From Candidatus Chlorohelix allophototropha (lineage in GTDB: Bacteria > Chloroflexota > Chloroflexia > Chloroheliales > Chloroheliaceae), in the NCBI RefSeq assembly GCF_030389965.1, contig NZ_CP128399.1:1850934-1914933 (forward strand): DNA of 64,000 nt, in the 5' to 3' direction. Positions 4,601-30,728 of this stretch are shown one piece after another (within the stretch, counting starts at the first letter, position 1; each line of letters begins with the position of its first letter). The notes beneath the pieces are model-generated. The model searched no databases. It saw nothing but the letters and a program-made list of their open reading frames with translations, and was not told the origin of the DNA. The translations under genes were made by a program, and so were the position numbers.

Positions 4601-6583
4601 GCCACCTTATACAGCGATGCCGTAGGTAAAGTCGGAGATGCTATTGCGAAGATGGCAAACGGCTTGACCGCACTTAGCAAGTATAGCTCATCCAGCCAGA
4701 TAGCAATGTACCTGTTTGCTCAAGACGCGAAGATTATTACCGGGATATTTGCCAGCGCGGGCTATGAGTTTGCTACCGGGATGCTCACCAATGCCAACAA
4801 CTACAGCGACACGGTAGGCAAGGTCGGTGACTCTATCGGGAAGATGGCAAACGGACTAACCACCCTTAATAACTACAGTTCGTTATCGCTCCAACAGATT
4901 TACTTCTTCACTCAGGACGTGCGATTGGTCACGGCAGCATTTGTCAGTGTCGGCTATGAGTTCAATACCCAAATGCTTACCAGCGCCGATGGCATTGCGA
5001 CCACAACGAGCAAGGTAGCCGATGTTCTCGGAAAGATGGTCACAGGGCTAACAGCCGTTGGGGATTACGGGTCGGTATCCATACAGCAGATGAACTACTT
5101 CATCGAGGATATGCAGACAATCACCGAAGGGTTTGTCGTTGCCGGGAGCGAGTTCAATACCCAAATGCTTACCAGTGCTGATGGCTTTTCTTCTACGGCT
5201 TCAAAAGTGGCTGATGCTATATCTAAGGGAGTAACCGGGTTAAGCGCAATCGGTGGTTCTGGCTCATTGTCAGTACAGCAGATGAACTACTTTATTGAGG
5301 ACATACAGACAATCACCGAAGGGTTTGTCAATGCCGGGAATGGGTTCTCCACCAAAATGCTTGCCAGCGCGGACGGATTTTCTTCTACGGCAAGCAAGGT
5401 GGCTGATGCTACGGGCAAGGGCGCAACCGAACTGGTCAAGCTCAACGACTATATTCCCGTAAGCCAGCAAGCAATCCGGGATTTTGGCGCAGACCTTGTA
5501 TTGATAGTAGCTCAATTTGTGATTATGGCTAGCCAATTCAAGACCGATGGCTTAACAGCCGCAGGTATATTCAGTGACAACGCCAGCAAGGTAGTTGATG
5601 CAATCGGGAAGGGCGCAACCGGGTTCGCTGCCTTACAAGGGTATAGCGGCATACCAAAGGAAACGATGCAGAAGTTCATCGCCGACCTACAGATAGCAAT
5701 CCAACTGACGGTACAAATGACCGCAAATATGAACACGCAAATGTTTACGCAAGTGCAAGCATTTGGTGAGGCAGTGGACAAGCTATTCACGGGCTTCAAG
5801 AATGCGGTGGAGACCTTCACGCTATTGGGCGATGCGAAATATACGGGTGCGCCAGAGAAGGCAATCAGGAGCTTGATTGCGGGTATCAGCTTAACCGTAA
5901 CACTGGCTGGTCAAATGGCAGACCAGACCAGTAAGGATTTAATGGCAAAAACCAGCCAGTTTGGGGAGGCGATTAAGCAGATATTTGACGGGCTAAAGAG
6001 TGCGTTGGATACCTTTACAGGCTTGACCAATATGCCAGAAACACCCGCCGATAGGATTAAGACCTTACTCAGTGGCATACAAAGCGCGATTGAGCAGATG
6101 GCAGCGATGAACGAGAGAGCCAACAACCTACTAGGTTTGGCTTTGAGCTTTGATGACAAAATGCAGAGAGCGGCAACAGCCATCACAGCGGGTCAAAATG
6201 CCGTTGCTATGGCAGGTGTGCCGAGTGGTGCGCCGAGCGGTAGCAGTGGTGCGGCAAGTGGCAAGTTTACAGGTGGGGCTTGGATGGGTCGCGCTACGGG
6301 TGGCACTGCTTTTCCTTACTTTATGGCAGGGGAGAACGGAGCAGAACCTATCTTTTTAGGAGCGCAGAACGCTTATGTAATGAACAATTCGATGGCACAG
6401 AGCAGGGGATTAGTGGGTGGCAATGGTGGCAGCACATCCAACCATCAAACTATCAACATAACTTTGAACATAACCGAGAGCAAAAATGCCAGAGCTACCG
6501 GGAAGGAAGCGAAAGACCAAGTTTTGATGGCATTAGGACAGAGGTCGGCTTTACTGGCAAGTCAGGGAGGAATAGCTAACTAA
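1685..6583 (+). CDS. Phage tail tape measure protein
   Basis: This 1,632-residue protein sets tail length and fills the tail tube. Residues about 125-360 match the TP901-type tape-measure core (EANMNRLKFITGAT, MAELAQRGYNVQ, MGLQSTDATHALDVMSRAS, ADRASQALRFTLVSLEKP). Hydrophobic segments follow at roughly 440-620, then a Ser/Gly-rich linker near 750. Residues about 800-1450 consist of tandem 64-residue repeats. The C terminus (after ~1,500) is Gly-rich with a short basic end. ATG 1685 overlaps the GT stop, suggesting translational coupling. At about 1.5 Å per residue such a length corresponds to a tail of a few hundred nanometres by the usual rule, an estimate only. Confidence 0.95.
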   Translation: MASSTSIFSLQVKSEGLENLNILAETLEGLKSKAQGFEAATKNMSSSLSITKSITTETATSLQQLGQHASTATTGIGNLHGFTLNLHAPLEHLAFLAREAGTALLELGKQGAEGLIHVGTEVVSLAGDYEANMNRLKFITGATADQMTLLSSKAVEIGKTTTFSSKSAAEGMAELAQRGYNVQQVYDLITPAAKAAMTNNVSLAQAAEGLTTVLHSMGLQSTDATHALDVMSRASQMGALNFADFQKAMANVGTVAHSAHQSFEETTAALEGMVNTGMSADRASQALRFTLVSLEKPNKQAAEMFKELGINIYDASGNMLPFSTLVDEVQKKTAGMTEAQRNFSMATMFGKNGLLAMNAAMQASVQVTDATGTHILHGADALKYWTTQLENSNGTAQKATDTIMSGFNASLKNMKGSLEEAAIAVGQTLLPGLTSLVKGVTEGINKFIDFEMKTHLVGNTLKAVGDLIGAFVKPVIDAISKMVESIGNGASSMNGFMSVFESLKPIFSEIGQAIGTTIQNIVGYIQIIVEAIQSNMPAIQKLGNAIGDVFKLIGQAVGEVVKFISQNMDTFISIFTSVANIIGQIVTGIIAVFEALKPALSTVFDWIAYALGKVNEAIAIFGVAWDRAGTTVKQISFLIEMAFTQVQNWIIDAINGIIRGINTLIDGMNIVGGAVGIHIDKIGELEHAAFNAEESLNRLGLAGNDAAGGLDKSSSASYVAARGYDAAGNSANNATNAIKNLTSALGNSYTFPQNSSSLPGSSADENPEDGSGPITSSSTKASDPLQTALDLASKLADVGKKISELNSFSGVSAEALATFNGNMQQVVQDFVASAMYFNSQALKGAADYLETANKVADVIGKMADGLNKLRDYQSISYDHIQAFMGDAQIMVGAFMQAGFRFSVEMLQAAILFSSAVSQVGEAIGKMANGLSGIGKYSSASRESMYGFVGDARIIVDLFVSAGYSFYGDMLKNATLYSDAVGKVGDAIAKMANGLTALSKYSSSSQIAMYLFAQDAKIITGIFASAGYEFATGMLTNANNYSDTVGKVGDSIGKMANGLTTLNNYSSLSLQQIYFFTQDVRLVTAAFVSVGYEFNTQMLTSADGIATTTSKVADVLGKMVTGLTAVGDYGSVSIQQMNYFIEDMQTITEGFVVAGSEFNTQMLTSADGFSSTASKVADAISKGVTGLSAIGGSGSLSVQQMNYFIEDIQTITEGFVNAGNGFSTKMLASADGFSSTASKVADATGKGATELVKLNDYIPVSQQAIRDFGADLVLIVAQFVIMASQFKTDGLTAAGIFSDNASKVVDAIGKGATGFAALQGYSGIPKETMQKFIADLQIAIQLTVQMTANMNTQMFTQVQAFGEAVDKLFTGFKNAVETFTLLGDAKYTGAPEKAIRSLIAGISLTVTLAGQMADQTSKDLMAKTSQFGEAIKQIFDGLKSALDTFTGLTNMPETPADRIKTLLSGIQSAIEQMAAMNERANNLLGLALSFDDKMQRAATAITAGQNAVAMAGVPSGAPSGSSGAASGKFTGGAWMGRATGGTAFPYFMAGENGAEPIFLGAQNAYVMNNSMAQSRGLVGGNGGSTSNHQTINITLNITESKNARATGKEAKDQVLMALGQRSALLASQGGIAN
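4079..5800 (+). repeat. 192-nt in-frame tandem repeats inside the tape measure gene
   Basis: The marker GGNAAGATGGCAAACGG and its variants occur at 4262, 4454, 4646, 4838, 5030, 5222, 5414 and 5606, a spacing of exactly 192 nt (64 codons) in all seven intervals. A shorter, diverged unit precedes at about 4079, and weaker units continue to about 6000. Two neighbours (about 5090-5200 and 5280-5390) are nearly identical in DNA, pointing to recent duplication. Confidence 0.9.
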
Positions 6584-11548: not shown

Positions 11549-12343
11549 ATGTTTACGATACTTCAAAAACCAGTACAAAATTACTGGACGGGTAGAGCGG
11601 GAATGCAAGCGGTAGCTATCGTTGACCATATTATGCAAGGCACGTTGGCTTCCACTGACGAGTGGTTCAACAACCCGACCTCTCAAGCCAGTAGCCATTT
11701 CGGAGTAGGCAAGGATGGCACAATCCATCAATACGTTGACCTTGCTAACTCAGCGTGGGGCAATGGGATTGTTGACCATCCCGATATGAGTATCGGTTGG
11801 TTATCGAATGCAATTGGGCGAGGTATCAACCTTAATCGTATGACGGTCTCGATAGAACACGAAGGCAATACGGGTGACGTAATGCCAGAGGCGCAATACC
11901 AAGCCAGCTTATACTTGCATCAATACATCAGCCAGCAATTAGGTATAATCTTAGACCGGGAGCATATAATCGGGCATTACCAGATTGATAGTGTGAACCG
12001 TCCGAACTGTCCGGGAACGGGTTTTCAATGGAGCAGATTGATGAGCGATTTACAGCAGACAGGCATACCGCAGAGTAACCCAGACGGTGAGTATTTTCAA
12101 GAGACTGGCTATTGGATAGTCAACGTTTTACCAGACGGGACTAGAATAGGCTTCCTAGACTTCTTCAAAAATAACGGGGGCATCAACGCTTTCGGGCTTC
12201 CAAAAACGGGAGCATATTTCGACCCGGCATTGGGGCGCGTGGTACAGCAGTTGGAAGCCAGTCGGCTTGAATATCACCCGGAGAACCCCGACCCTTACAA
12301 GGTGGAGAGGGGCTTGGTTAATGACGAGCTTCGGGGCGTTTAG
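11549..12343 (+). CDS. Endolysin, N-acetylmuramoyl-L-alanine amidase
   Basis: This 264-residue enzyme should cleave the amide bond between muramic acid and L-alanine in peptidoglycan at the end of the lytic cycle. Residues about 20-165 form an Amidase_2/PGRP-type domain with the zinc ligands H27 (IVDHIMQG), H143 (IIGHYQID) and C154 (NRPNCPGTG); E103-H104 lies in the SIEHEG strand. Residues about 190-250 (FLDFFKNNGGINAFGLPKTG) look like an LGFP-type wall-binding repeat. It has no signal peptide, consistent with export through the holin encoded just upstream. The gene is followed by a strong terminator that closes the late operon. Confidence 0.93.
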   Translation: MFTILQKPVQNYWTGRAGMQAVAIVDHIMQGTLASTDEWFNNPTSQASSHFGVGKDGTIHQYVDLANSAWGNGIVDHPDMSIGWLSNAIGRGINLNRMTVSIEHEGNTGDVMPEAQYQASLYLHQYISQQLGIILDREHIIGHYQIDSVNRPNCPGTGFQWSRLMSDLQQTGIPQSNPDGEYFQETGYWIVNVLPDGTRIGFLDFFKNNGGINAFGLPKTGAYFDPALGRVVQQLEASRLEYHPENPDPYKVERGLVNDELRGV

Positions 12344-12389
12344 ACTACTATCCATCTATTTCAGGGGGTAACTCCTGACAATCCTCCTC

Positions 12390-12429
12390 AAAAAAAGTGC
12401 TTTTCTGCCGAGAAGCACTTTTTTTTATT
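12390..12429. terminator. Bidirectional intrinsic terminator closing the late operon
   Basis: AAGTGCTT (12395-12402) pairs with AAGCACTT (12413-12420), with A residues before and eight or more T residues after the stem, so it can work on both strands. Confidence 0.9.
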
Positions 12430-12489
12430 TTGCTGAAAAAGACAGTTTTTTACCCAAAAATAGCCCTTATAGATTTACTAAAACTAAGA

Positions 12490-12790
12490 ATTGGTAAATT
12501 TATCCGATTTTTAAGGCTTAATCCGCTTGAATGGCTTTATGGCGCAAGTGAAGCTATTTTTGAGACCTTTATGTTGATACCTTTTCCCCTTGCAACAGCC
12601 CTTCACGGGCTTTGTGATTGGTGGGTTCTAAGCGTTGACAAGCCCGTGAAGCGGGGCAACGGTAAACACCCACATAATGCTAGTAACAAATACTGACGGG
12701 CTTTGTATCGCGTGTTTTGAAATTCGTGTGTAAATCTATTGTATTTTGATGTGAACAGTTATATAATGCTAGTAACAAATACAAGTTTAC
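12490..12790 (+). repeat. Composite intergenic repeat region R1
   Basis: No gene is visible between 12,344 and 12,807. The stretch holds GTAAATTTATCCGATTTT (12,494), a large inverted repeat (CTTCACGGGCTTTGT at 12,601 with ACAAGCCCGTGAAG at 12,638, one unpaired base), CATAATGCTAGTAACA (12,673), TGACGGGCTTTGTAT (12,694) and the promoter at 12,739. The same parts recur in the same order, incompletely, at about 22.3-22.6 kb and 27.96-28.25 kb. Confidence 0.85.
12739..12777 (+). promoter_or_regulatory. Prophage early-type promoter P1 with GCTAGTAACA element
   Basis: TTGTAT (12,739-12,744), 17-bp spacer, TATAAT (12,762-12,767), then GCTAGTAACA (12,768-12,777). The spacer includes ATGTGAACAG. It drives the small gene at 12,814. 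Confidence 0.85.
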
Positions 12791-12813
12791 TGATTAAGAA
12801 AGGATTTATGACT

Positions 12814-13029
12814 ATGAAACTTACCAAAGAACAAGCCGAGCAACTTGACCTGTTTTTACAGGATTGCGATGAATATCTTGAATACGCCGATGACCCGGCG
12901 ATGTATATCTGGGACAAGTTTTTTAACAGCCCAGAGCAGCGGGAAGCCCGTGAAGCCGAAGAAGCGGAAAGCCGCTTAGAACTGCTTGCCGCCCGTGTGG
13001 TGCGCCGTAGCAATCGCACCCGCCAATAG
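12814..13029 (+). CDS. Small acidic prophage protein of unknown function
   Basis: Encodes 71 residues. Two in-frame ATGs (12,808 and 12,814) are possible; the second is preferred because AAAGGA (12,799-12,804) lies 9 nt before it but only 3 nt before the first, and the same ATGAC-N-ATG arrangement recurs at 27,385 and 28,278. The protein is acidic in its first half (DLFLQDCDEYLEYADDP) and ends with an amphipathic helix (EQREAREAEEAESRLELLAARV) and a basic tail. No known domain was recognised. Its own promoter and a terminator make it a one-gene transcription unit with possible read-through to 13,073. Confidence 0.75.
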   Translation: MKLTKEQAEQLDLFLQDCDEYLEYADDPAMYIWDKFFNSPEQREAREAEEAESRLELLAARVVRRSNRTRQ

Positions 13030-13041
13030 GGTGCGATTTTT
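13013..13041 (+). terminator. Intrinsic terminator overlapping the end of the small gene
   Basis: ATCGCACCC (13,013-13,021) pairs perfectly with GGGTGCGAT (13,029-13,037), followed by TTTTAT. The left arm and stop codon belong to the preceding coding sequence. Confidence 0.9.
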
Positions 13042-13072
13042 ATCCAAGCTGATTATAGAAAGGGCTAGGACA

Positions 13073-13243
13073 ATGTTGAAATATAAAGTAGAAGATACCA
13101 AATTTGAGACCTACCGGGAAGCCTGTGAATACGCGCTGACCATTGGTAGTGGAACTGCCATCCAAGAGTTAGTAAGAGGAACGGGGAGCTATCAGACAGT
13201 AGCCCATGTTAGTTGGTTACATACAATCCAAGAGGTATATTAA
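13073..13243 (+). CDS. Small prophage protein of unknown function
   Basis: Encodes 56 residues (MLKYKVEDTKFETYREACEY...). The start at ATG 13,073 is chosen because AGAAAGGG and AGGA lie just upstream (13,057-13,070); a longer frame from 12,986 overlaps the previous gene and its terminator. The protein is soluble and mixed in charge, with a pattern like small phage beta-alpha regulators, but no family was recognised. It sits just after the terminator of the preceding gene, so its expression depends on read-through or an unseen promoter. Confidence 0.6.
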   Translation: MLKYKVEDTKFETYREACEYALTIGSGTAIQELVRGTGSYQTVAHVSWLHTIQEVY

Positions 13244-13651
13244 GATGAAAAAAGAAGTAAGCACAAGGCTCTGGTTCTAATTCAAAACCACTTTCTCTTC
13301 TGCGGTAAAGGCTCATCAATTGTAGACTTTTTCTCTTTGATAGAACAGTACAGCAACACCCTGAATAGTTAAGATAGTACACACTCTGCAAATTCGTTAC
13401 ATTTTTAACAATATTTAAACGCTTTTTTACCTTTATTTACTGCTAAGCATCTTATAATATGTTTATAAGATAACGATGGTGACTGTGTTTCGTCTCTTTT
13501 ATTCTGTATAGTTTAAAGATAAGGAGAATAGAGGCATGGTAATGATGTGCGGTAAAGCCCAATTCTAGGTTCAATCAATAAAATTTTCTGACATAGAGAA
13601 ACTAGTTACAGCATTTTGCTATACTACGTACTACTTTAGTTTATACACCCT
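13244..13651. other. AT-rich stretch before the first signalling cassette; no long gene
   Basis: No reading frame above 60 codons has a ribosome binding site here. A TATAAT occurs at 13,453-13,458 without a good -35. A 10-codon frame with a strong Shine-Dalgarno site lies at 13,536. Otherwise nothing is recognised. Confidence 0.5.
13536..13568 (+). CDS. Possible 10-residue leader peptide
   Basis: ATG 13,536 follows a perfect AAGGAG (13,521-13,526) by 9 nt and encodes MVMMCGKAQF before TAG. It lies about 85 nt upstream of the structured leader RNA and could be a regulatory leader peptide of the receiver gene. The evidence is only the ribosome binding site. Confidence 0.25.
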   Translation: MVMMCGKAQF

Positions 13652-13798
13652 AGTTTATTAGACATATCTTATTTTCAGCCTACTGCATCGTTGCAGCAGG
13701 TTGGCTTTTACTGCCTATCTCAATGGCGCGATAGGTAAGTTTTTCGCCACATAAATAAAAACAAGGGGTGGTGCTAACCCATCACCCCTATATTTTCT
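13652..13798 (+). ncRNA. Structured leader RNA A with terminator, upstream of receiver gene
   Basis: This stretch is about three-quarters identical to 16,470-16,611. It can fold as hairpin 1 (CCTACTGC with GCAGCAGG), hairpin 2 (CCTATC with GATAGG, loop ending AATGGCGC), a downstream CGCC (13,745-13,748) able to pair with the loop GGCG as a pseudoknot, and a final hairpin GGGGTG/CACCCC (13,765-13,788) followed by a T-rich run. The last hairpin looks like a terminator in front of the gene at 13,833. Candidate cis-regulatory RNA; it does not match any riboswitch consensus that I can recall. Confidence 0.65.
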
Positions 13799-13832
13799 TG
13801 TACTCAATATTATCACATAGGGAATAGGTGAC

Positions 13833-14183
13833 ATGGTAGTTTTAGTTATAAATGAGACTGCTATTCTGCGAAAAGCCCTACGCAGATTCTTTGAACTACA
13901 GGGCTACACTATGATTGAAGCTGGGAACTTTGGTCAAGCTTATTCTATGGCAATCGAATACAAACCACAGTTTGTACTAGCTGATAACCTTATAGAAGCA
14001 ACATTGTGCCTCAATTTTTTCCAGCTTCTCCAGTCAATTCCCGGTATGGAAATGACTGAGTTTGTAGTATTTACTGACTATGATGATGAGTTTGAAACTG
14101 CCGCCAGTATCAATCTAAAAGCAACTATTACCAAGCCCAACATATTGCCTAAGATGAGAGAGCATTTCCCACCCTTACATTAG
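13833..14183 (+). CDS. Stand-alone receiver-domain protein A
   Basis: This 116-residue protein is essentially one CheY-like receiver domain. The putative phosphoacceptor Asp lies in FVLADNLIEA, the Thr in VFTDYDD and the Lys in ITKPN; the N-terminal acidic pair is replaced by NE (VLVINETAI), so metal binding may be weakened. It has no output domain. It is a paralogue of the protein at 16,655, and both have the same type of structured leader and the same 3' terminator. A hybrid histidine kinase lies convergently next to it, so phosphotransfer between them is plausible. Unusual cargo for a prophage. Confidence 0.8.
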   Translation: MVVLVINETAILRKALRRFFELQGYTMIEAGNFGQAYSMAIEYKPQFVLADNLIEATLCLNFFQLLQSIPGMEMTEFVVFTDYDDEFETAASINLKATITKPNILPKMREHFPPLH

Positions 14184-14225
14184 AATAAACACCTCCTAAC
14201 TTCCCCTCATTTTAAGCAGTACAAC

Positions 14226-14264
14226 AAAGAGCCGAGCATAACCACCCGGCTCTTTCATCTTTTA
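14226..14264. terminator. Terminator after receiver gene A, conserved in the second cassette
   Basis: AAAGAGCCG (14,226-14,234) pairs with CGGCTCTTT (14,247-14,255), followed by CATCTTTT. The motif before it (AAGCAGTACAACAAAG) is repeated after receiver gene B. It probably serves the convergent kinase gene as well. Confidence 0.85.
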
Positions 14265-14289
14265 TAGGGTTGCACTATAAAGAAATATA

Positions 14290-15942
14290 TTATGCCAGCA
14301 TTGCGTCCAACTTCTCGCGCAGTTCCAAAAACTTGAAAGGCTTACTCAGCGCACCCTTAAACCCATATGCCTCAAAATTGCTCAAAATCGGGTCATTGGA
14401 ATAACCGCTCGTAACTATTGCTTTTACTTGAGGGTCTATCGCTAATAAGTGTTGGATGGTTTCCTTGCCGCCCATCCCACCCGGTATGGTTAAATCCAAT
14501 ATCACCGCTTGGAAAGGATTAGCGCTCTCCAACGCTTCCCGGTAGAGTTCAATTCCCATTGCGCCATCAAGAGCGGTTACAACCTCATACCCCACAAGAC
14601 CAAGCACTCGTTTCAATAATACGAGAATATCATTTTGGTCATCTACAATCAGAACTTTGCCTCCATACATCGAAACCAGCTTTTCCCCAGAATCTTTCTC
14701 AAAAGGTGCAACCACTTCTCCAGAAAGGGCTGGCAAATACAGGAAGAAAGTAGCGCCTTTGCCAAGTTTTGAAGTCACCCCCAGAAAACCCTTGTGCTTA
14801 CTGATAATCGAAAAGGAGGTCGCCAGTCCCAAACCGCTTCCGCTGGACTTGGTAGTAAAGTATGGTTCGAATATTTTAGTTAAGGCTTCCTGACTGATAC
14901 CGATACCATCGTCTTGGATGGAGACCTTCACGTAATCAACCGTTTTTAATAGCATTGGCTCATCCTGCCTAACGACACTGTTCGCCAGCACATTCTCAGC
15001 GGTAATCGTAATAATGCCACCTTCCGGCATTGCTTGGTCGGCATTGATAATCAGGTTATTTATTACTTGGCTTATCTGATTGGTATCAATATTCACTACC
15101 CATAAATCCTCCGGTAAGGCAAAGACACAGCGTACATTCGACCCGTGCAAGGCAAAAATAGCTGTTTCTCGCACCAACTCCTGTAGCGACGAAATTTTTT
15201 TGATGGGTGCGCCCCCTTTGGAAAAGGTTAGCAACTGGTGGGTTAATTCCTTAGCTCGGAAAGTTTGGCTTTCGGCTTCTGCCAGCAAGTCCTCTACTTT
15301 AAGCGATTTCTGGTCTTTGGTTGCCAGCTTAGCCAACCAGATATTCCCAGCTATCGAGGTCAAAACATTGTTAAAATCGTGGGCAATACCGCCAGCCAGT
15401 ATTCCCACACTTTCCAACTTTTCGGCGCGGGCTACTTCTAATTCCAGTTTACGTTCGTGGGTAACATCTCGAAAGACCAGCACTACCCCCAATATTTGAC
15501 CAGTAATCGTATCAATAATCGGCGCGGCGCTATCAGCGATGACCCGTGAATTACCTTCTTGACTAATCAAAAGGGTGCTATTAGCCAAGCCCCTGATAAG
15601 TCCGGTATCCAACACCTTTTGAACCGGGTTCTCCACCTCTTTGCCGGTTTTCTCACTGATAATATGGAATACTTCTCGTAGGGGCTTGTTTTGTGCCTCG
15701 GCAATGTTCCAGCCTGTAAGGGTTTCGGCAACCGGATTCATCATCACTACTAACCCTTGCGTATCGGTGGTAATCACCCCGTCACCGATGCTACGTAAAG
15801 TTATAGCCAGCATTTCTTTTTCTTTGAGCAACAACTTTACGTAGGTTTTGCGTATCTCCGCTTCATTTTCCAGTGCGGTAATGCGCTGCTGCAACCGTTC
15901 TAGTTCCTTATGAAGTTGCTGGTTAGAAATATCGTAATCCAT
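14290..15942 (-). CDS. Hybrid sensor histidine kinase (PAS-HisKA-HATPase-REC)
   Basis: Encodes 550 residues from ATG at 15,942, preceded by AAGGTGG; an in-frame GTG at 15,972 has no ribosome binding site. Order of domains: N-terminal coiled coil (about 5-45), PAS (about 50-165, MLAITLRSIGDGVITTDTQG), HisKA with phosphoacceptor H188 (GGIAHDFNNVL), HATPase with N box NLIINADQAMPEGG, G1 DDGIGIS, F box EPYFTTK and G2 GSGLGLA, then a complete receiver (VLIVDDQND, LDLTIPGGMGG, VTSGYS, LSKPF). No transmembrane segment, so it is a cytoplasmic sensor. All catalytic residues are present. It is flanked by two receiver-only genes that face it or point away from it, forming a small phosphorelay-like island inside the prophage. 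Confidence 0.95.
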   Translation of the reverse strand: MDYDISNQQLHKELERLQQRITALENEAEIRKTYVKLLLKEKEMLAITLRSIGDGVITTDTQGLVVMMNPVAETLTGWNIAEAQNKPLREVFHIISEKTGKEVENPVQKVLDTGLIRGLANSTLLISQEGNSRVIADSAAPIIDTITGQILGVVLVFRDVTHERKLELEVARAEKLESVGILAGGIAHDFNNVLTSIAGNIWLAKLATKDQKSLKVEDLLAEAESQTFRAKELTHQLLTFSKGGAPIKKISSLQELVRETAIFALHGSNVRCVFALPEDLWVVNIDTNQISQVINNLIINADQAMPEGGIITITAENVLANSVVRQDEPMLLKTVDYVKVSIQDDGIGISQEALTKIFEPYFTTKSSGSGLGLATSFSIISKHKGFLGVTSKLGKGATFFLYLPALSGEVVAPFEKDSGEKLVSMYGGKVLIVDDQNDILVLLKRVLGLVGYEVVTALDGAMGIELYREALESANPFQAVILDLTIPGGMGGKETIQHLLAIDPQVKAIVTSGYSNDPILSNFEAYGFKGALSKPFKFLELREKLDAMLA

Positions 15943-16469
15943 ATAGATGCCACCTTTTTCCTGCTTTTGCACACAATATCAAGGGTTTATAAATATAGGT
16001 GGAGCAACTCACTTGCTACTAAAAAATGGATTGAGAATAAGTGCAGGAGTTAGAATGGAGTGTAAATTGAAAGCTATAAATGTAAGCCAGTTAACCAACT
16101 CTTATTTGTACATTTAAATTATAGCACGTTTATAGCTTTTAGTACGCCTCGTCCACTTCTTCATTTGGGAAGTATTTATTAAAGTGTATGTATGCAAAGT
16201 ATAACTGGAAAAATAGATATACTATATCCCTTTCTATTTAATTAAATTTATGGTATGATAAACTATCAATAAAACTTTTGTGAGAAAATCCTTGAACGTT
16301 GTTTGCCTAACTATTTCTCCTAACAGTAGGAGTGTAGATGCTTGTATGAGTTAATGAGCAGAATTAGGCTCAGTTAGCGCAGTAATTCTAGCTTAGGCAA
16401 AGAATCTTAGCAGCATATTTTTAGAATACATCCCTCCCCCACCTTTATTTTTAGCACCACAAATAATTA
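15943..16469. other. AT-rich intergenic stretch between kinase and second receiver cassette
   Basis: No reading frame with a ribosome binding site was found. It must contain the minus-strand promoter of the kinase and the plus-strand promoter of leader B; TATGAT at 16,254 is a weak -10 candidate. No repeat or RNA gene recognised. Confidence 0.5.
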
Positions 16470-16611
16470 GACAAATCTTAAATTTAGCCTACTTCTTGGG
16501 GAAGCAGGTTGAATTATTTAGCTTATCGCAACGGCGCGATAGGTATGTTTATAGCCACACAAATTAAACAAAGGGGTGGCTCTAACTAGCTCCCCCCTTT
16601 TTTGCACTGGG
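16470..16611 (+). ncRNA. Structured leader RNA B with terminator, upstream of receiver gene
   Basis: Homologue of leader A. Hairpin 1 is CCTACTTC/GAAGCAGG, where a G-C pair of leader A is replaced by T-A, a compensatory change that supports a base-paired RNA. Hairpin 2 is TATCGC/GCGATA with loop AACGGC; the downstream GCCACA can pair with the GGC of the loop. A last hairpin (AAAGGGG with CCCCCTTTTTT, 16,570-16,602) is a good intrinsic terminator located about 50 nt before the receiver start. The conserved unpaired stretches GGCGCGATAGGTA and GCCACA would be candidate ligand- or protein-contact regions. Confidence 0.7.
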
Positions 16612-16654
16612 TTTTAATTAGATTTAATCAGGTTGGGGTGGAGGACTATTGGCG

Positions 16655-17023
16655 ATGATGGTTCTAATTGTTAACAATGACCATGACTTCAGAAATATCG
16701 TCCGAATAATCCTGAAACCGTATAATTACGATGTAGTGGAAGCAGTCAGCTACAATGATGGGTTCTGGAGAGCGGTGGAGTTCAAGCCCCAGATTGTGTT
16801 AGTGGATAATATTATTACCTCTAAGTCCGGCATTGATTTGTGTAAGGATATTCAGTTAATTCCCGGTATGGAAGCTACGGAATTTTTAGTTTTTACTGAC
16901 TTTGATAATGAGTTAGAAAAGGTTGTGGATAGCAGAATAATTGGTGTGATTAAAAAGCCCTACATACTTTTTGAGATGAGAAAAATATTGCCCTTCCCCT
17001 CTATTCAACAGCAGGCTGGTTAG
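16655..17023 (+). CDS. Stand-alone receiver-domain protein B
   Basis: Encodes 122 residues. ATG 16,655 is preferred because GGAGG (16,640-16,644) lies 10 nt upstream; TTG 16,649 is possible but is only 4 nt away. The protein is a CheY-like receiver with the phosphoacceptor Asp in IVLVDNIITSKSG, Thr in LVFTDFDN and Lys in VIKKPY. The acidic pocket reads NND, so it is less degenerate than paralogue A. No DNA-binding or enzymatic output domain follows. Similarity to A covers the whole length, including PGME[AM]TEF, with the flanking leader and terminator conserved too. Confidence 0.82.
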   Translation: MMVLIVNNDHDFRNIVRIILKPYNYDVVEAVSYNDGFWRAVEFKPQIVLVDNIITSKSGIDLCKDIQLIPGMEATEFLVFTDFDNELEKVVDSRIIGVIKKPYILFEMRKILPFPSIQQQAG

Positions 17024-17086
17024 GCTTGTATTTAGAATATTGACCCCTTTACTAAGCAAGTTCCCCTTTCCCTAAGCAGTACAAAC

Positions 17087-17126
17087 AAAGAGCCGGGTGT
17101 GTAGCTCATCCGGCTTTTTCATCTTT
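17087..17126 (+). terminator. Terminator after receiver gene B
   Basis: AAAGAGCCGG (17,087-17,096) pairs with CCGGCTTTTT (17,110-17,119), with two G-T wobbles. The preceding AAGCAGTACAAACAAAG matches the sequence before the terminator of cassette A. Confidence 0.8.
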
Positions 17127-17225
17127 ACAAAAAATCCCGACCCAACCACGTTAGGACATACTGGTGGCAAAAGACGAGGGGCAGGAAGAAAGATAACGAA
17201 AAGAGCCGGGCTAACATCCTCGCCA

Positions 17226-17678
17226 CTAATGACTATCTTCAACTTGCTTCTCCTGCATAAACTTAATCTGGTCATCGGTCATCTTGCAATCAAGTTTTGC
17301 ATCTAGGATTTCACCGTCTGGATATACCAGTACGTCCCGATTATTGCGTGTGGCAAGATACACACCTGCGGCAAGGGCTTGCGCTATGAGCATTTGGCTT
17401 TGCGTATTGATTGCGCGTTCTTGCGCCCGGTCTGCATAAAGGCTTGCGCGTTCTTGCGTCCTGTCTGCACTAAGCATACGCAAGGTTTGCATATGGTATT
17501 CCCGGTTTGCGTGTTCGTTGCGTAAGAATTGCGTAAGCATCCAACCGACAAACGCAAAGCTGGCAGTGGCGCAAAGCATAACCAGTAATAGCGCAAAGTT
17601 GGCAATCGGGGCTACTACAATGGCAAGCACCACCTCGACCAGTACGACCCCTGAAACTATATATACCAGATTTCTCAT
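17226..17678 (-). CDS. Small membrane protein, last gene of the repressor operon
   Basis: Starts at ATG 17,678 with AAGGAG 4-5 nt upstream; a longer frame to 17,720 would overlap the preceding gene. The 150-residue product has two hydrophobic segments (about 4-23 and 29-51) and then a polar, probably helical region with a short repeat (ADRTQERASLYADRAQERA) and an acidic C-terminal tail. No known domain was recognised. It is the last of six genes transcribed from the XRE repressor leftwards, with its start right at the upstream stop codon, so it belongs to the lysogeny-linked operon. Function unknown; membrane-linked exclusion of other phages is one possibility. Confidence 0.75.
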   Translation of the reverse strand: MRNLVYIVSGVVLVEVVLAIVVAPIANFALLLVMLCATASFAFVGWMLTQFLRNEHANREYHMQTLRMLSADRTQERASLYADRAQERAINTQSQMLIAQALAAGVYLATRNNRDVLVYPDGEILDAKLDCKMTDDQIKFMQEKQVEDSH

Positions 17679-17679
17679 A

Positions 17680-18234
17680 CTACTCCTTTTCACTGGCAAT
17701 CGAGATAAACATTTCTCCAAGTGCGCCTACGGCTGCGGCAATGGTGGTGATAAATATCCCTTGCAAGGTGAGCGGCGCATACTGTGATACTTTCAACAAG
17801 TGCATCAAGCCCACCGTATTGAACACCGTATTCAGGATGAAGAACAAAGATAGGACTACCATTGCCAACGGTGAGTGTCCTTTAGTGAGAAGCGCAATCT
17901 GACTACCTGTGAATATCGCGGCTGGCGCAAGGTCTATCCAAACAGTATTGACTGTCGGGAAGGCTACCAACATAAACAGGTAGGTTAAATAGGCATCCAT
18001 TAGTAGTAGCACGACCCCGAAAATAAAGAGTCTAATCCGGGTTATAGGAGTCAAGCGTCCACGTTCTGGACGTATAAGTAACCAACTAAGTGGGTTTACA
18101 CCTTCACCCGCCTTCTTGGGCTTTGTAGCGCGTCTGGCGGGAATCGGTATATTTGGGGTCTGGGTAGTAGTATCGAAGTCCAGTGCTGCCACACTGCTTT
18201 CGTATCTTTGCGCTCCCGGTAATTTGCTGCTCAT
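17680..18234 (-). CDS. Four-helix membrane protein of the repressor operon
   Basis: Encodes 184 residues. A polar N terminus of about 65 residues (with the basic stretch ARRATKPKKAGEG) is followed by four predicted membrane helices at roughly 67-90 (IRLFIFGVVLLLMDAYLTYL), 95-118, 122-145 and 155-178. It ends in EKE directly before the start of the next gene. The fold is not recognised. The cytoplasmic N-terminal tail and the tight operon with two membrane-anchored helix-turn-helix proteins suggest a membrane complex, which is inference only. Confidence 0.75.
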   Translation of the reverse strand: MSSKLPGAQRYESSVAALDFDTTTQTPNIPIPARRATKPKKAGEGVNPLSWLLIRPERGRLTPITRIRLFIFGVVLLLMDAYLTYLFMLVAFPTVNTVWIDLAPAAIFTGSQIALLTKGHSPLAMVVLSLFFILNTVFNTVGLMHLLKVSQYAPLTLQGIFITTIAAAVGALGEMFISIASEKE

Positions 18235-18253
18235 CTATTTACTCCTCAAAAGT

Positions 18254-18297
18254 ATTCAACGAATTCAACCTATTCAATTGTTATTCAATCTATTCAA
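18254..18297. repeat. Array of five ATTCAA hexamers
   Basis: ATTCAA occurs at 18,254, 18,263, 18,272, 18,283 and 18,292, spaced 9, 9, 11 and 9 nt. The array fills the gap between two genes of the repressor operon and overlaps the end of the 18,290-18,964 gene. Phased short repeats like this are typical binding arrays (iterons), but protein and role are unknown. Confidence 0.6.
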
Positions 18298-18964
18298 TTT
18301 GAACCTGTGATTGAATAGAATAGGCTGGATTTACTACGGTAGAAGGGGAGGGTGGTATAGTTTGCATCACTGCTTGCCAGTAGTTTTGCACACCACTACG
18401 CATTGCCAACTCCCCTATTGCGTCTATGGTCTGGTCGAACGATTTTAATTTGCGCCTACTTGCACGTCCTGCGCCTTCTGGTTTGGTGATTGCGCCCACC
18501 TCCTCTAGCATCTCAACCAGATTGCGGTATTCGGTGCGACTGTAACCACGACCTAACCAAGTGGTTTCGCCTATTGCGCCTTCCACCATTACACCCTTGA
18601 TAAAAGCGTAGAACCGCTTGCGCTCCTCTAGTAGCTCAAGTGGTAGGTCTTGCGTATTAGGCGCAAGCGGCTTGCGTATGTCTTGCGGGTCTTGCGTATT
18701 CGGAGTAGTGGTAGGCGCAAGTGGCTTGCGTATTGCTTGCGTGTCTTGCGTATAGCCTTCTACCTGATTGATAGCTCTTGCGTAATAGTGCAAGCTCGTC
18801 ATAAAAGCGGTCAAGCCAATGAACGCAATGGCAACAGGTGCGAACTGCAATTCCGCTATTGATAGCGACAGTACGAAAAAGTAGATGCACATTGCGGTAA
18901 GCCATAGAAACAGGATTGCTATCCTGCCATCTTCACTGTCTAAATTGCGTATTACTTCCTTCAT
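18290..18964 (-). CDS. Membrane protein with internal repeats and winged-helix-like C terminus
   Basis: This 224-residue protein has two N-terminal membrane helices (about 15-35 and 40-58), a linker with imperfect repeats (TQAIRKPLAPTTTPNTQDPQ, then QDIRKPLAPNTQD) and a soluble C-terminal domain (about 115-185). The segment GYSRTEYRNLVEMLEEVGAITKPEGAGRASRR resembles a winged helix, with a recognition-like helix and basic wing. A membrane protein carrying a DNA-binding-type domain is uncommon in phages. The linker repeats are encoded by repeated TTGCGTAT octamers in the plus strand. Confidence 0.7.
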   Translation of the reverse strand: MKEVIRNLDSEDGRIAILFLWLTAMCIYFFVLSLSIAELQFAPVAIAFIGLTAFMTSLHYYARAINQVEGYTQDTQAIRKPLAPTTTPNTQDPQDIRKPLAPNTQDLPLELLEERKRFYAFIKGVMVEGAIGETTWLGRGYSRTEYRNLVEMLEEVGAITKPEGAGRASRRKLKSFDQTIDAIGELAMRSGVQNYWQAVMQTIPPSPSTVVNPAYSIQSQVQIE

Positions 18965-20248: not shown

Positions 20249-20287
20249 TTGACTTCATATGTGAACAGTAATATAATGCTAGTAACA
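20249..20287 (+). promoter_or_regulatory. Prophage early-type promoter P2, divergent from the repressor
   Basis: TTGACT (20,249-20,254), 17-bp spacer with ATGTGAACAG, TATAAT (20,272-20,277), GCTAGTAACA (20,278-20,287). It faces away from the XRE gene and drives the five-gene operon 20,321-22,132. A minus-strand TATAAT for the repressor lies at 20,182-20,177. Confidence 0.88.
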
Positions 20288-22546: not shown

Positions 22547-22585
22547 TTGACATTCTATGTGAACAGTTATATAATGCTAGTAACA
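22547..22585 (+). promoter_or_regulatory. Prophage early-type promoter P3 with GCTAGTAACA element
   Basis: TTGACA (22,547-22,552), 17-bp spacer TTCTATGTGAACAGTTA, TATAAT (22,570-22,575), GCTAGTAACA (22,576-22,585). Both hexamers match the sigma-70 consensus exactly. Drives the genes from 22,619 to at least 24,298. Confidence 0.92.
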
Positions 22586-23641: not shown

Positions 23642-24298
23642 ATGTTGCATAAAGACCAGATAGCACTGCTTAGAGAACCGTTGGATAAGAAGCGGGTGAA
23701 GTCTCGCAAGCAAGGCGGGAAGCAAGTAACCTACCTGCCGGGACACGATGTAATTGACACGGCTAATCGGATATTCGGTGAGGATGGGTGGGGCTATACC
23801 ATTACCAGCCAAATCCAAGAAACCATAACCGATATGAACGGAGTGGTAACAGGTGTTCTCTACACTGCCACCGTAAGACTTGAGATTGATGGCTGCAAGC
23901 CCGTTGAGGATGTAGGCACTGGTTTTGTCTATGCAAAGGAAATGGGAACGTTTGCCGCTCGTAGCAAGGGTATTAAGCAAGCAATTACCGATGCACTGAA
24001 ACGCTGCTTCCGGGTAAAGGGAGTGCAATTCGGTAATGGTCTATATGACGATGACCCGGTGTATGAGCAGGATGAAACAGGAGAGCGCAAGCAACAATAC
24101 AAGCGTGACACCTCGACCAGCAACACCACCAAACCTGCTCTATCAGTGCCACAGGTTAAAAGCAACATTAGTGCCATCAAGAGTATTGCGGAGCTTGATA
24201 ACTTCTATGCCGTTATTATGGACGCAGGCTACCAACCCGGAGAAGTAGCAGCCTTGAAGAAAGCTTTCAACGAGCGTTCTCAACAAATAGCAGTATAA
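23642..24298 (+). CDS. Rad52/Rad22-family single-strand annealing protein
   Basis: Encodes 218 residues from ATG 23,642 (AGGAGG at 23,629-23,634). Residues about 15-145 match the Rad52/Rad22 double-strand break repair domain: VKSRKQGGKQVTYLPGHDVI, DTANRIFGEDGWGY, GFVYAKEMGTFAARSKGIKQ, AITDALKRCFRVKGVQFGN and GLYDDD. Members anneal complementary strands, and in phages they support recombination-dependent replication. The C-terminal part (about 150-218) is a linker plus a small helical tail. It is the only clear recombination gene of the visible early region; no partner exonuclease or SSB is next to it. Confidence 0.92.
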   Translation: MLHKDQIALLREPLDKKRVKSRKQGGKQVTYLPGHDVIDTANRIFGEDGWGYTITSQIQETITDMNGVVTGVLYTATVRLEIDGCKPVEDVGTGFVYAKEMGTFAARSKGIKQAITDALKRCFRVKGVQFGNGLYDDDPVYEQDETGERKQQYKRDTSTSNTTKPALSVPQVKSNISAIKSIAELDNFYAVIMDAGYQPGEVAALKKAFNERSQQIAV

Positions 24299-24447: not shown

Positions 24448-27225
24448 ATGCCAATTATTAGCTGGAACGATATTCGCAGTAACGCTGTTGAGTTTTCTCA
24501 GGAATACAAAGACGCTACCCGTGAGAATGCAGAAACCCAATCCTTCTATAACGACTTTTTCAAAGTTTTTGGTGTCACTCGCCGCCGTGTGGCTTCGTAT
24601 GAAGCACCCGTAAAAAAGCTCGGTGCGAAACACGGACGTATAGACCTTTTCTGGAAGAGGACGCTCCTAGTGGAGCAAAAATCTGCTGGCAAAGACCTAG
24701 AAGTTGCCTACACTCAAGCCCTTGATTATTTCCCTAACTTGACAGAGGAAGAATTACCTCGCTACATCCTAGTTTGTGACTTCCAGAATTTCGAGTTGTA
24801 TGACCTTGACACCGATACCGTACATAAGTTCAAGCTGGAAGAATTGCACACTAAGGTTGAGTTGTTCGGGTTTATCGCAGGATACCAGAAGCGGGAATTC
24901 AAAGACCAAGACCCGGTAAATATCAAAGCTTCTGAGCTTATGGGAAAACTCCACGACATGCTCAAAGCTACGGGCTATAGTGGTCATGACCTAGAACAAT
25001 ATTTGGTGCGCCTGTTATTCTGCTTGTTTGCAGACGATACCGGGATTTTCGACAAGGACACCCTAAGTTTCTATATCGAAGAACAGACCCGTGAGGATGG
25101 CAGCGATTTAGGAATGCATCTCAATTCACTTTTTGCCACCTTGAACAAACCCTATGAAACCCGTCAAACAAACCTGAGTGAAGCTCTAAAAGCATTTCCA
25201 TATATTAACGGCAATCTGTTTGCCGAGCGTCTTGAGCCACCGGCATTTGACCGCGCTATGCGTGAAACCCTGATAACCGCTTGTTATTTCGATTGGGGAA
25301 GCATCTCACCCGCGATTTTCGGCTCACTCTTTCAATCAGTAATGGATAAAGACAAGCGGCGAGGTATGGGAGCGCACTATACCACCGAAAAAAACATCAT
25401 GAAGATTTTGAAGCCGCTCTTTCTAGATGCGCTTTATGCCGAGTTCGAGAGTGTGCGCTATGAGAGCAAGAAGCTTCAAAACTTCCATAAAAAGCTGGAA
25501 ACTCTTACCTTCCTTGACCCCGCTTGTGGCTGTGGTAACTTCTTAATTCTGGCATATCGAGAATTGCGTTTGCTCGAAATCGAAGTGCTGAAAGCGTTAA
25601 ATCCTGATAATGACAAAGCTCTAGAAAAGCAGTTAAAGTTGGACGTTAGCCAATTTTCCTCACGTATCAATGTTGATGCATTCTATGGTATCGAGATTGA
25701 GGAATTCCCTGCTCGTATTGCAGAAGTCGCTATGTGGCTAATAGACCACCAAATGAACCTGCGTCTGTCGGAGGCATTTGGACAATATTATGCGCGTATT
25801 CCTTTGAAGAAATCCGCTCACATTCATAATGCTAATGCCCTGAAGTTGGATTGGAACACCGTCATATCAAAAGAGCAGCTATCCTACATTCTCGGCAACC
25901 CGCCCTTTGTAGGTAAACATCTTATGTCTTTAGAGCAAGGCAAAGAAATTGATATTCTTTTTCATGGTGTTAATGGCGCAGGAGTTTTGGATTATGTTAC
26001 GGCATGGTATCTAAAAGCGGCGCAATATATTCAGGATAGCCGTATTGTGTGCGGCTTCGTTTCAACCAATTCTATCAGTCAGGGTGAACAAACGGCTATT
26101 TTGTGGCAGGAGCTTTTCAATCGCTACCATATCAAAATTCACTTTGCTCATCGTACCTTTGCGTGGAGTAGTGAGGCAAAAGGTAAGGCAGCGGTATATT
26201 GCGTTATAGTGGGCTTTGCGGTGTATGACATTGATACCAAGTTACTTTATGATTATGATACCCCGAAATCAGAAGCCCACGAACTCAAAGTAAAGAATAT
26301 CAATCCCTACTTAATTGAGGGCGATGATTTTGTTATTGACAAACGTAGAAGCCCTATATGTAATATCCCGTCTATGTTATATGGCAATAAACCAGTAGAT
26401 GGCGGGAATTTAATTTTATCAGATGCGGAAAAAGAAGAGCTACTTAGTAAAGAACCCTTAGCCCTTAAGTGGATAAGACCTTTTATTACTGCTGAGGAAT
26501 TTATTAACGGTAAAACCCGGTGGTGTTTGTGGCTAGTTGGCATACAACCAAATGAATTACACCAATTGCCTGAAGTAATGAAAAGAGTTAAGTTAGTTAA
26601 AGAAACCCGGTCAAATAGTGTGGATGAAGGGGCTAGAAAATTAGCCAGTCGTCCAGCGGAATTCAGGGATACAAAAGTATTCAAAAAATATATGATATTC
26701 CCTCTCCATTCATCCGAAATAAGGCAATATATTCCTTTTGGTTATATTGATTTTGATTGTATCGTAGGCAATAGCTGTTCATTTATTCCTAATCCTGACT
26801 TATTCCAATTCGGCGTACTCACCTCGCAAATGCACATGGCTTGGATGCGAACGGTATGTGGAAGAATCAAAAGCGACTACCGCTATTCAAATACCATTGT
26901 TTACAACAACTTCCCTTTTCCGCAGAACCCAACCCCAGAGCAGGTAAAAGATATTGAGAAAAAGGCGCAAGCAGTATTGGATACTCGCGCCCTGTTTCCT
27001 ACTAGCACCCTTGCCGACCTGTATGACCCGCTCACAATGCCGCCAGCGTTGGTCAAAGCCCATCGGGTATTGGACAAAGCAGTAGATACTGCCTATCGCA
27101 AACCGCCATTCGACACAGAGCTTCAAAGGGTAGAGTATCTTTTCAATATGTATAAGACCATCACCGAGCCGTTACTCACCGCAATAGCTGAGTCTAACAA
27201 GAAGAAACGCCAGCCCAAAAATTAG
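24448..27225 (+). CDS. Single-chain MmeI-like (type IIL/IIG) restriction-modification enzyme
   Basis: This 925-residue protein combines nuclease, methyltransferase and target recognition in one chain. N terminus: PD-(D/E)xK-type nuclease with D66 (RIDLFW) and E76-Q-K78 (LLVEQKSAGKDL), as in MmeI. Then a helical spacer, SAM motif I D357PACGCGNF, and catalytic motif IV N484PPF (gamma-type N6-adenine methyltransferase). The target recognition part covers about 600-830, and the C-terminal helical bundle begins near 850 (PTPEQVKDIEKKAQAVLDTR). One-strand hemimethylation by the same chain protects the host in this family. It sits alone in the early region, with weak ribosome binding and a slightly different style from its small neighbours, so it is probably cargo that defends the lysogen. 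Confidence 0.93.
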   Translation: MPIISWNDIRSNAVEFSQEYKDATRENAETQSFYNDFFKVFGVTRRRVASYEAPVKKLGAKHGRIDLFWKRTLLVEQKSAGKDLEVAYTQALDYFPNLTEEELPRYILVCDFQNFELYDLDTDTVHKFKLEELHTKVELFGFIAGYQKREFKDQDPVNIKASELMGKLHDMLKATGYSGHDLEQYLVRLLFCLFADDTGIFDKDTLSFYIEEQTREDGSDLGMHLNSLFATLNKPYETRQTNLSEALKAFPYINGNLFAERLEPPAFDRAMRETLITACYFDWGSISPAIFGSLFQSVMDKDKRRGMGAHYTTEKNIMKILKPLFLDALYAEFESVRYESKKLQNFHKKLETLTFLDPACGCGNFLILAYRELRLLEIEVLKALNPDNDKALEKQLKLDVSQFSSRINVDAFYGIEIEEFPARIAEVAMWLIDHQMNLRLSEAFGQYYARIPLKKSAHIHNANALKLDWNTVISKEQLSYILGNPPFVGKHLMSLEQGKEIDILFHGVNGAGVLDYVTAWYLKAAQYIQDSRIVCGFVSTNSISQGEQTAILWQELFNRYHIKIHFAHRTFAWSSEAKGKAAVYCVIVGFAVYDIDTKLLYDYDTPKSEAHELKVKNINPYLIEGDDFVIDKRRSPICNIPSMLYGNKPVDGGNLILSDAEKEELLSKEPLALKWIRPFITAEEFINGKTRWCLWLVGIQPNELHQLPEVMKRVKLVKETRSNSVDEGARKLASRPAEFRDTKVFKKYMIFPLHSSEIRQYIPFGYIDFDCIVGNSCSFIPNPDLFQFGVLTSQMHMAWMRTVCGRIKSDYRYSNTIVYNNFPFPQNPTPEQVKDIEKKAQAVLDTRALFPTSTLADLYDPLTMPPALVKAHRVLDKAVDTAYRKPPFDTELQRVEYLFNMYKTITEPLLTAIAESNKKKRQPKN

Positions 27226-27317: not shown

Positions 27318-27356
27318 TTGACATTCTATGTGAATAGATATATAATGCTAGTAACA
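27318..27356 (+). promoter_or_regulatory. Prophage early-type promoter P4 with GCTAGTAACA element
   Basis: TTGACA (27,318-27,323), 17-bp spacer with ATGTGAATAG, TATAAT (27,341-27,346), GCTAGTAACA (27,347-27,356). Drives the gene at 27,391. Confidence 0.92.
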
Positions 27357-28210: not shown

Positions 28211-28249
28211 TTGTATTCTAATGTGAATATAGATATAATGCTAGTAACA
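28211..28249 (+). promoter_or_regulatory. Prophage early-type promoter P5 with GCTAGTAACA element
   Basis: TTGTAT (28,211-28,216), 17-bp spacer with ATGTGAATAT, TATAAT (28,234-28,239), GCTAGTAACA (28,240-28,249). Drives 28,284-29,021. Confidence 0.88.
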
Positions 28250-29469: not shown

Positions 29470-29512
29470 AAGAAGCACTGGTAAATGTCGGGTTTGCCAG
29501 TGCTTCTTTTTT
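29470..29512. terminator. Bidirectional terminator between early genes and integrase
   Basis: AGAAGCACTGG (29,471-29,481) pairs with CCAGTGCTTCT (29,497-29,507), followed by TTTTTT on the plus strand. It separates the convergent integrase gene. Confidence 0.9.
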
Positions 29513-30596: not shown

Positions 30597-30655
30597 ATAT
30601 TCCCTCTAAAATCAGTGGGAATAGGAAACGTTTATCGCATTGTAGTGGCTTGAGA

Positions 30656-30728
<73 letters not shown>

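Follow-up and report, generated by a model that had tools for sequence, protein, structure and literature searches.

Two bodies of work frame the locus described here. The first concerns pseudo-receivers, which PMC12632262 defines as receiver domains that lack one or more of their five active-site residues (D, DD, T, K); the same source gives the precedent of ShkA, whose pseudo-receiver domain binds and inhibits the HisKA domain of its own kinase, and calls the mechanisms of pseudo-receiver activation a mystery. The second concerns the RNA targets of ANTAR proteins, which, in the excerpts of PMC3369931, PMC8164766 and PMC8934654 used here, consist of two stem-loops with hexaloops bearing A1 and G4 and a linker of 2-25 nt between them; in antitermination of the EutV type the terminator stem overlaps the second stem-loop, P2. 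The organism, Candidatus Chlorohelix allophototropha L227-S17, is a phototroph of the Chloroflexota noted for its type I reaction centre, and two chromosomes (2.96 and 2.45 Mb) and three smaller circles are reported for it in the available text of PMC10972752. We analysed a window of 64,000 nt of the first chromosome (C1:1850934-1914933; C1 and C2 denote the two chromosomes, coordinates without a prefix refer to the window, and the assembled genome comprises 6.09 Mb in five contigs), in which a prophage carries a hybrid histidine kinase gene between two receiver-only genes, receiver A and receiver B.

A preliminary description of this DNA had proposed that the kinase and the two receivers form a phosphorelay carried by the prophage. 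Part of this holds: the kinase is complete and, by its sequence, cytoplasmic, and two receivers do flank it. The relay itself fares less well, given a copy of the trio on chromosome 2, the loss of metal-binding residues from the receivers and the lack of an HPt domain. The explanation that we put forward, tentatively and with rather less than even confidence, is that the trio represents a host-type two-component module present twice, on chromosome 2 and as cargo of a prophage at tRNA-Lys, in which attenuator-controlled pseudo-receivers would modulate the kinase or its host paralogues.

The receivers belong to a family of eight members in this genome, which score 136-201 bits against a profile built from seven of them. 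Among 399 other Chloroflexota genomes the family yielded two single matches (50-53 bits, E ≤ 1e-12), and 40 nearer relatives gave no match above 52 bits; as far as these searches reach, the family is species-restricted. The first metal-binding Asp (DD1) is lost in all eight members and both DD positions are lost in B, the site reading N-E in five members, N-N in B, N-G in one and H-E in the eighth, so that under the definition of PMC12632262 the members are pseudo-receivers. Neither A (N-E) nor B (N-N) thus has the acidic DD pair for Mg2+ of a canonical receiver, a pair present in 15 of 16 control receivers of the same genome, the sixteenth (L046) having D-P. With the first acidic residue gone from A and both gone from B, B is unlikely to receive phosphate from the kinase, and for A this is uncertain. 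The Response_reg model of Pfam scores receiver A at 29.3 bits, just under the cut-off of 30.2, and receiver B, which starts at TTG 16649 or ATG 16655, at 37.8 bits, over it. The AlphaFold model of receiver A (predicted local distance difference test, pLDDT, 89) is CheY-like with helix 4 unformed, and its top Foldseek matches are Spo0F (template modelling score, TM, 0.8), RR468 and DivK. The eighth receiver (L078:5610-6020, that is C1:2823609-2824019), which may be the ancestral chromosomal form, has no leader of the kind described below and lies beside a gene that we take to be PhoU-like. Genes of small membrane proteins, presumably GlsB/YeaQ-like (L022:1718-1993 and L031:5950-6282), adjoin or lie close to two receiver loci of chromosome 2.

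The kinase is, as first described, a PAS-HisKA-HATPase_c-REC protein with all catalytic residues in place, which both the Pfam domains and a residue-by-residue inspection of the motifs bear out. PAS covers residues 49-160 (2.3e-10), HisKA residues 182-244 (22.0 bits, under the 26.9 cut-off), HATPase_c residues 286-405 (4.7e-20, 72.5 bits) and Response_reg residues 430-545 (9.4e-15, 55.2 bits). The H-box GIAHDFNN (185-192) contains the phospho-acceptor H188, the ATP-binding boxes begin at residues 300 (N-box), 344 (G1, DDGIG), 358 (F-box) and 368 (G2), and the REC domain has DD at 434/435, the acceptor Asp in ILD near 483, T/S at 511/512 and K at 534, the functional roles being those that we assume for such motifs. 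The start is ATG 15942, with the ribosome-binding-site-like AAAGGTGG upstream; an alternative GTG at 15972 would add 10 aa. No transmembrane helix was seen in the kinase, whose top hydrophobic 19-mer (mean 1.78) falls within the PAS domain, and the protein looks cytoplasmic and soluble. Longer paralogues in the genome share 42-49% identity with it, and its best relatives elsewhere are found in a genome of the same family (56%) and in a metagenome-assembled genome of the Armatimonadota (52%).

On these properties of kinase and receivers turns the classical reading, in which the kinase phosphorylates A and/or B and thereby acts on lysogeny control or on host proteins. The completeness of the kinase speaks for it, as do the adjacency of the receivers to it in both copies of the trio, the acceptor Asp, Thr and Lys kept in all seven aligned family members, the acidic E at DD2 of the A-type receivers and the CheY-like model of receiver A with its Foldseek matches. 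It is countered by the loss of DD1 throughout the family and of both DD residues in B, by the unformed helix 4 in the model, by the lack of an output domain in either receiver and by the three remaining receiver loci (C2:1954 kb, C2:2283-2285 kb and C1:2824 kb), which have no kinase of this type alongside. Furthermore, the kinase gave no Pfam match to an HPt domain over the cut-off, a single sub-threshold HPTransfase match overlying the HATPase; for a His-Asp-His-Asp relay an additional protein would thus have to take part. We consider the classical trio unlikely.

The reading that we prefer, modulation by attenuator-controlled pseudo-receivers, draws on a conserved leader of about 126 nt that precedes seven of the eight family receivers. 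A covariance model of this leader, run over the whole genome, finds seven places at E ≤ 4e-22, each directly 5' of a family receiver; the next matches have E ≥ 0.07, the top two of which are those leaders read on the opposite strand, and no other place falls below E = 0.05. Two hairpins, P1 and P2, come first; the strand that follows them (CGCCAC or AGCCAC) can pair with the 5' arm of P3, a terminator-like hairpin with a T-rich tail. In the P1/P2/P3 structure 94.4% of 196 cells are paired and 5 of 28 pairs carry double changes; in 500 shuffles neither this paired fraction nor this count of double changes was attained, and slid versions were at most 58.7% paired. With so few leaders, all of them related, and a structure derived from these very sequences, the covariation counts as support for the structure but falls short of proof. 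The antiterminator helix is present in the minimum-energy fold of the leader prefix in six of the seven leaders, and at full length the terminator state is the lower one in all seven, a pattern that would suit a transcription attenuator with mutually exclusive terminator and antiterminator. Searches for relatives of the leader gave no Rfam match at E ≤ 1 (positions 12000-18500 of the window), three single matches in 300 other genomes (26-28 bits, E 0.003-0.009), which equals chance expectation, and no match in IMG/VR for either of two exact patterns. A kissing interaction of the P1 and P2 loops, considered on account of a CCGTTG/CAACGG complementarity seen by eye, was rejected, as it fails in the B-type leaders.

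The two stem-loops in part resemble ANTAR targets. A hexaloop with A1 and G4 is found in P1 of five leaders and in P2 of all seven, with a linker of 9 nt, and the commonest P2 (GCAACGGCGC) follows the published consensus of 13 nt (AGCAANGRRGCUY) in its core, save for the last loop base. The genome encodes a sole ANTAR protein, a REC-ANTAR protein (Table 1), whose closest PDB chains are 1s8n (annotated ‘putative antiterminator’, 213 bits) and 6wsh (142 bits); the former is the protein called Rv1626 in PMC8934654, and the latter we infer to be EutV from its sibling entry 6ww6, ‘EutV bound to RNA’. Across the 11 EutV residues that PMC8934654 names as RNA contacts, an alignment read by hand gives identity with REC-ANTAR at six (R142, K143, K149, E160, M172, R175), similarity at three (K147R, Y164F, N173D) and a difference at two (R168Q, R177S). 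The leader is probably recognised by this host protein, which would act in the manner of PdtaR or EutV through the A1/G4 hexaloops.

Several observations weigh against the proposed scheme. P1 lacks an A1/G4 hexaloop in two of the seven leaders, both B-type and one of them that of receiver B itself. P3 is a separate hairpin that starts about 29 nt after P2 and has no overlap with it, so the canonical EutV route does not apply. The prefix fold of the B_C2 leader is without the antiterminator, and in the minimum-energy fold of the C2_2284 leader P1 pairs with P2, leaving no two hexaloops. A strict scan for the dual motif matched only three of the seven leaders, two of them with a terminator, against one match, without a terminator, in 400 kb of sampled genome on both strands. 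A relaxed scan matched five leaders at ≥4 base pairs and three at ≥6, and in 800 kb of strand it returned 109 chance pairs at the lower threshold (0.027 per 200 nt) and six at the higher (0.0015 per 200 nt). As the seven leaders form one homologous family, the ANTAR-like motif moreover counts as a single event, and the ANTAR gene is unlinked to any receiver. On the side of the receivers, the retention of acceptor Asp, Thr and Lys, together with E at DD2 in five of the seven aligned members, means that some phosphorylation may survive.

Some of these points would suit a riboswitch or another attenuator unrelated to ANTAR, in which P1 and P2 would bind a ligand or some other protein, with the receiver under the control of the terminator. 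All seven leaders conserve GTTT, GCCACA and the P3 loop CTAAC, linkers and loops beyond what ANTAR recognition requires, and both the distance of the terminator from P2 and the un-ANTAR-like P1 loop in two leaders fit such a device. The combination of A1/G4 hexaloops and 9-nt linker in five of seven leaders argues otherwise, as do the lack of an Rfam family and the confinement of the leader to one genome, whereas riboswitches are widespread; we regard this alternative as somewhat unlikely.

The host character of the module rests on its second copy. Chromosome 2 carries three genes in the same arrangement as the prophage trio: positions 13350-16141 match C2:1697154-1694367 at 92% DNA identity, and 17078-17215 match C2:1693546-1693408 at 96%. 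Between these segments, the B cassette of the prophage (16159-17048) finds its best match (85%) not in the second cassette of the chromosome 2 trio but in a solitary receiver cassette (C2:1953966-1954858). Sequence from two separate loci of chromosome 2 is thus combined in the prophage trio, and this mosaic suggests recombination between copies scattered over the genome. Measured in 60-nt windows, identity is 92-100% across 14245-15984 and falls to 62-67% just outside. The neighbours of the chromosome 2 trio, judged from their translations, are presumably Obg, homocitrate synthase-like, sigma factor, ABC and MFS genes, and none of the seven scanned with PHROGs belongs to a structural phage family. 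A near-copy outside a phage context indicates that the trio is not phage-specific, and the near-identity of the two sets makes them look more like host signalling parts shared by virus and host than like a private virus circuit. Five of the seven leader-bearing receiver cassettes lie on chromosome 2, which would make capture of the trio by the phage from its host the simpler direction. Within the trio the kinase gene is convergent with receiver A and divergent from receiver B, so the trio forms three transcription units and no operon.

The copies also bear on whether the trio does anything for the phage. The two kinases share 96% protein identity, with nonsynonymous (dN) and synonymous (dS) divergence of 0.017 and 0.058 (dN/dS 0.30); replacements are below the neutral expectation (one-sided p about 1-2e-4), and both copies look to be under purifying selection. 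Between the copies of receiver A, dS is 0.94 over the first 65 codons and 0.20 over the remainder. Positive selection on receiver A was considered and rejected, as dN/dS of its N-terminal part is 0.32 and recombination with an older cassette fits the high dS better. It could be held that recombination merely brought a segment of the host chromosome into the prophage, and that the trio is useless to the phage and either decaying or neutral. Such passive carriage agrees with the confinement of all close relatives of the receivers to the same genome, with the mosaic make-up of the prophage trio from two chromosome 2 loci and with the lack of a trio in the related phage records searched. All three open reading frames are intact in both copies, which does not favour it, and nor does the kinase dN/dS, though the selection that this reflects need not have acted in the prophage. 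On balance we doubt this explanation.

Under the shared-module explanation, transcription from the promoter of each receiver would normally halt at the P3 terminator of the leader. REC-ANTAR would recognise the leader hexaloops, and switching of the leader between terminator and antiterminator would set the amount of receiver. The receivers, impaired in metal binding, would then act mainly by binding the DHp region of the hybrid kinase or of host paralogues instead of serving as classical phosphorelay outputs, and could there compete with the REC domain of the kinase or act as a weak phosphate sink. The prophage copy would add dosage and sequence variety to the host signalling network and no circuit of its own. 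A bolder form of this idea, which we consider improbable, is that a new kind of cassette has been met, in which RNA-attenuated single-domain pseudo-receivers recombine as whole transcription units between prophage and host chromosomes, leader RNA and receiver staying together, and are switched by an ANTAR protein, phage and bacterium thus trading exchangeable modulators of hybrid kinases. If the shared-module explanation is right, a temperate phage holds spare, variant signalling modulators of its host under the RNA-based control of that host, and the locus would offer a directly testable case of RNA antitermination governing pseudo-receivers. The claim of a private phage circuit would then become one about wiring shared by host and phage.

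The location of the trio within a prophage, already proposed in the preliminary description, is confirmed by genes for terminase, portal, major head protein, tape measure, endolysin and integrase and by a perfect 51-bp repeat that marks both ends of an element of about 69 kb, with the integrase gene adjoining tRNA-Lys. The trio follows the endolysin region, a common spot for phage cargo genes. Coordinates of the features are collected in Table 1.

Table 1. Features of the trio, its leaders, the host ANTAR gene and the prophage
Feature	Position	Strand	Details
Leader of receiver A	13673-13800	+	P1 hexaloop ATCGTT; P2 hexaloop AATGGC; antiterminator strand CGCCAC; terminator hairpin P3
P3, intrinsic-terminator-like hairpin of leader A	13764-13789	+	10 pairs, then ATATTTTCTT
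Receiver A	13833-14183	+	116 aa; single-domain pseudo-receiver; DD site N-E; D51, T81, K101 kept
Hybrid histidine kinase	14290-15942	-	550 aa; PAS - HisKA (H188) - HATPase_c - REC
Leader of receiver B	16482-16608	+	Same layout as leader A; P2 hexaloop AACGGC; P1 loop of 5 nt without A1/G4
Receiver B	16649-17023	+	122-124 aa; single-domain pseudo-receiver; DD site N-N; acceptor Asp, Thr, Lys kept
Block homologous to chromosome 2	13350-17215		Counterpart C2:1697154-1693408
REC-ANTAR, sole ANTAR protein of the genome	C2:1832207-1832839		210 aa; 81.3 bits
Prophage integrase	29511-30596	-	Tyrosine recombinase; beside tRNA-Lys
Prophage attachment repeat	30647-30697		51 bp; tRNA-Lys 3' end; identical partner C1:1812560-1812610, outside the window
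Sigma-70-like promoter copies in the window	12749-12776, 20259-20286, 22557-22584, 27328-27355, 28221-28248	+	
Further sigma-70-like promoter copies	L079:7439-7466, L080:17186-17213		

Apart from the trio, the prophage contains a sigma-70-like promoter in seven copies that share a conserved spacer (ATGTGAA.A...ATATAATGCTAGTAAC), against a chance expectation of 0 in the window; they are candidates for early promoters controlled jointly by a single repressor. None of the copies stands directly 5' of a trio gene, the closest lying about 1 kb before receiver A. The prophage also encodes an MmeI-type restriction-modification enzyme (24448-27225), adjoining a Rad52-like gene (23642-24298), and a protein of the phosphoadenosine phosphosulfate reductase family (L079:9613-10782, that is C1:1827612-1828781; PHROG 2302, 185 bits). 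Internal direct repeats with a period of 192 bases occur in the tape-measure gene (4439-5411).

The kinase had also been called rare phage cargo, and the counts agree: 27 of 50,697 phage records match it at E ≤ 1e-10, only three of these matches cover 80% of the query and all are below 60% identity, and the 20 matches listed show 21-31% identity, several of which seem to be bacterial chromosome entered as phage. Such cargo is not unprecedented, as PHROG 5982, a family of unknown function, aligns with kinase residues 49-549 (249 bits) and viral contigs contain 48 loci with relatives of the kinase (best 46% identity); a phage hybrid kinase is thus rare but not new. The receivers gave less: no relatives of receiver A among INPHARED phages and none of the receivers among 122 pattern matches in IMG/VR. 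The preliminary description had tied its relay to two things, phosphotransfer and conservation of the trio in other phages, and the latter half came out negative: among 32 phage records whose terminase or head protein is related (32 out of 65 loci fetched), some of which may be fragments, no receiver exceeded the Pfam cut-off and one record gave a weak match. In the titles and abstract openings of the open-licence papers that our searches listed we found no description of this trio or of receivers under an ANTAR-like leader.

Compared with known systems, the kinase has the same domain order as the PAS hybrid sensor histidine kinases of the host family and every one of their motifs; unlike such kinases generally, it is short (550 aa) and is duplicated together with two receivers, one copy lying in a prophage. 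The receivers share with the pseudo-receivers and atypical response regulators treated in the accessible part of PMC12632262 a CheY-like fold and the loss of at least one active-site residue, and are set apart from those described there by being free-standing, present in multiple copies, placed behind an RNA leader and in possession of D, T and K. With the ANTAR targets of EutV, NasR and PdtaR, as the excerpts cited above present them, the leaders have in common the dual A1/G4 hexaloops and 9-nt linker (five of seven), a terminator downstream and a single REC-ANTAR protein in the genome, whereas here the terminator lies clear of P2, two leaders have a degenerate P1 and the controlled genes are receivers. 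Among phages, the cREC domains of jumbo phages (PMC7824862) and PIT4, a phage protein that targets two-component systems (PMC10714779), are likewise phage-carried receiver-like or kinase-directed proteins; unlike what the available parts of both papers describe, a complete kinase and pseudo-receivers here travel together. In the trio, known parts occur in variant form and are arranged in an unusual way.
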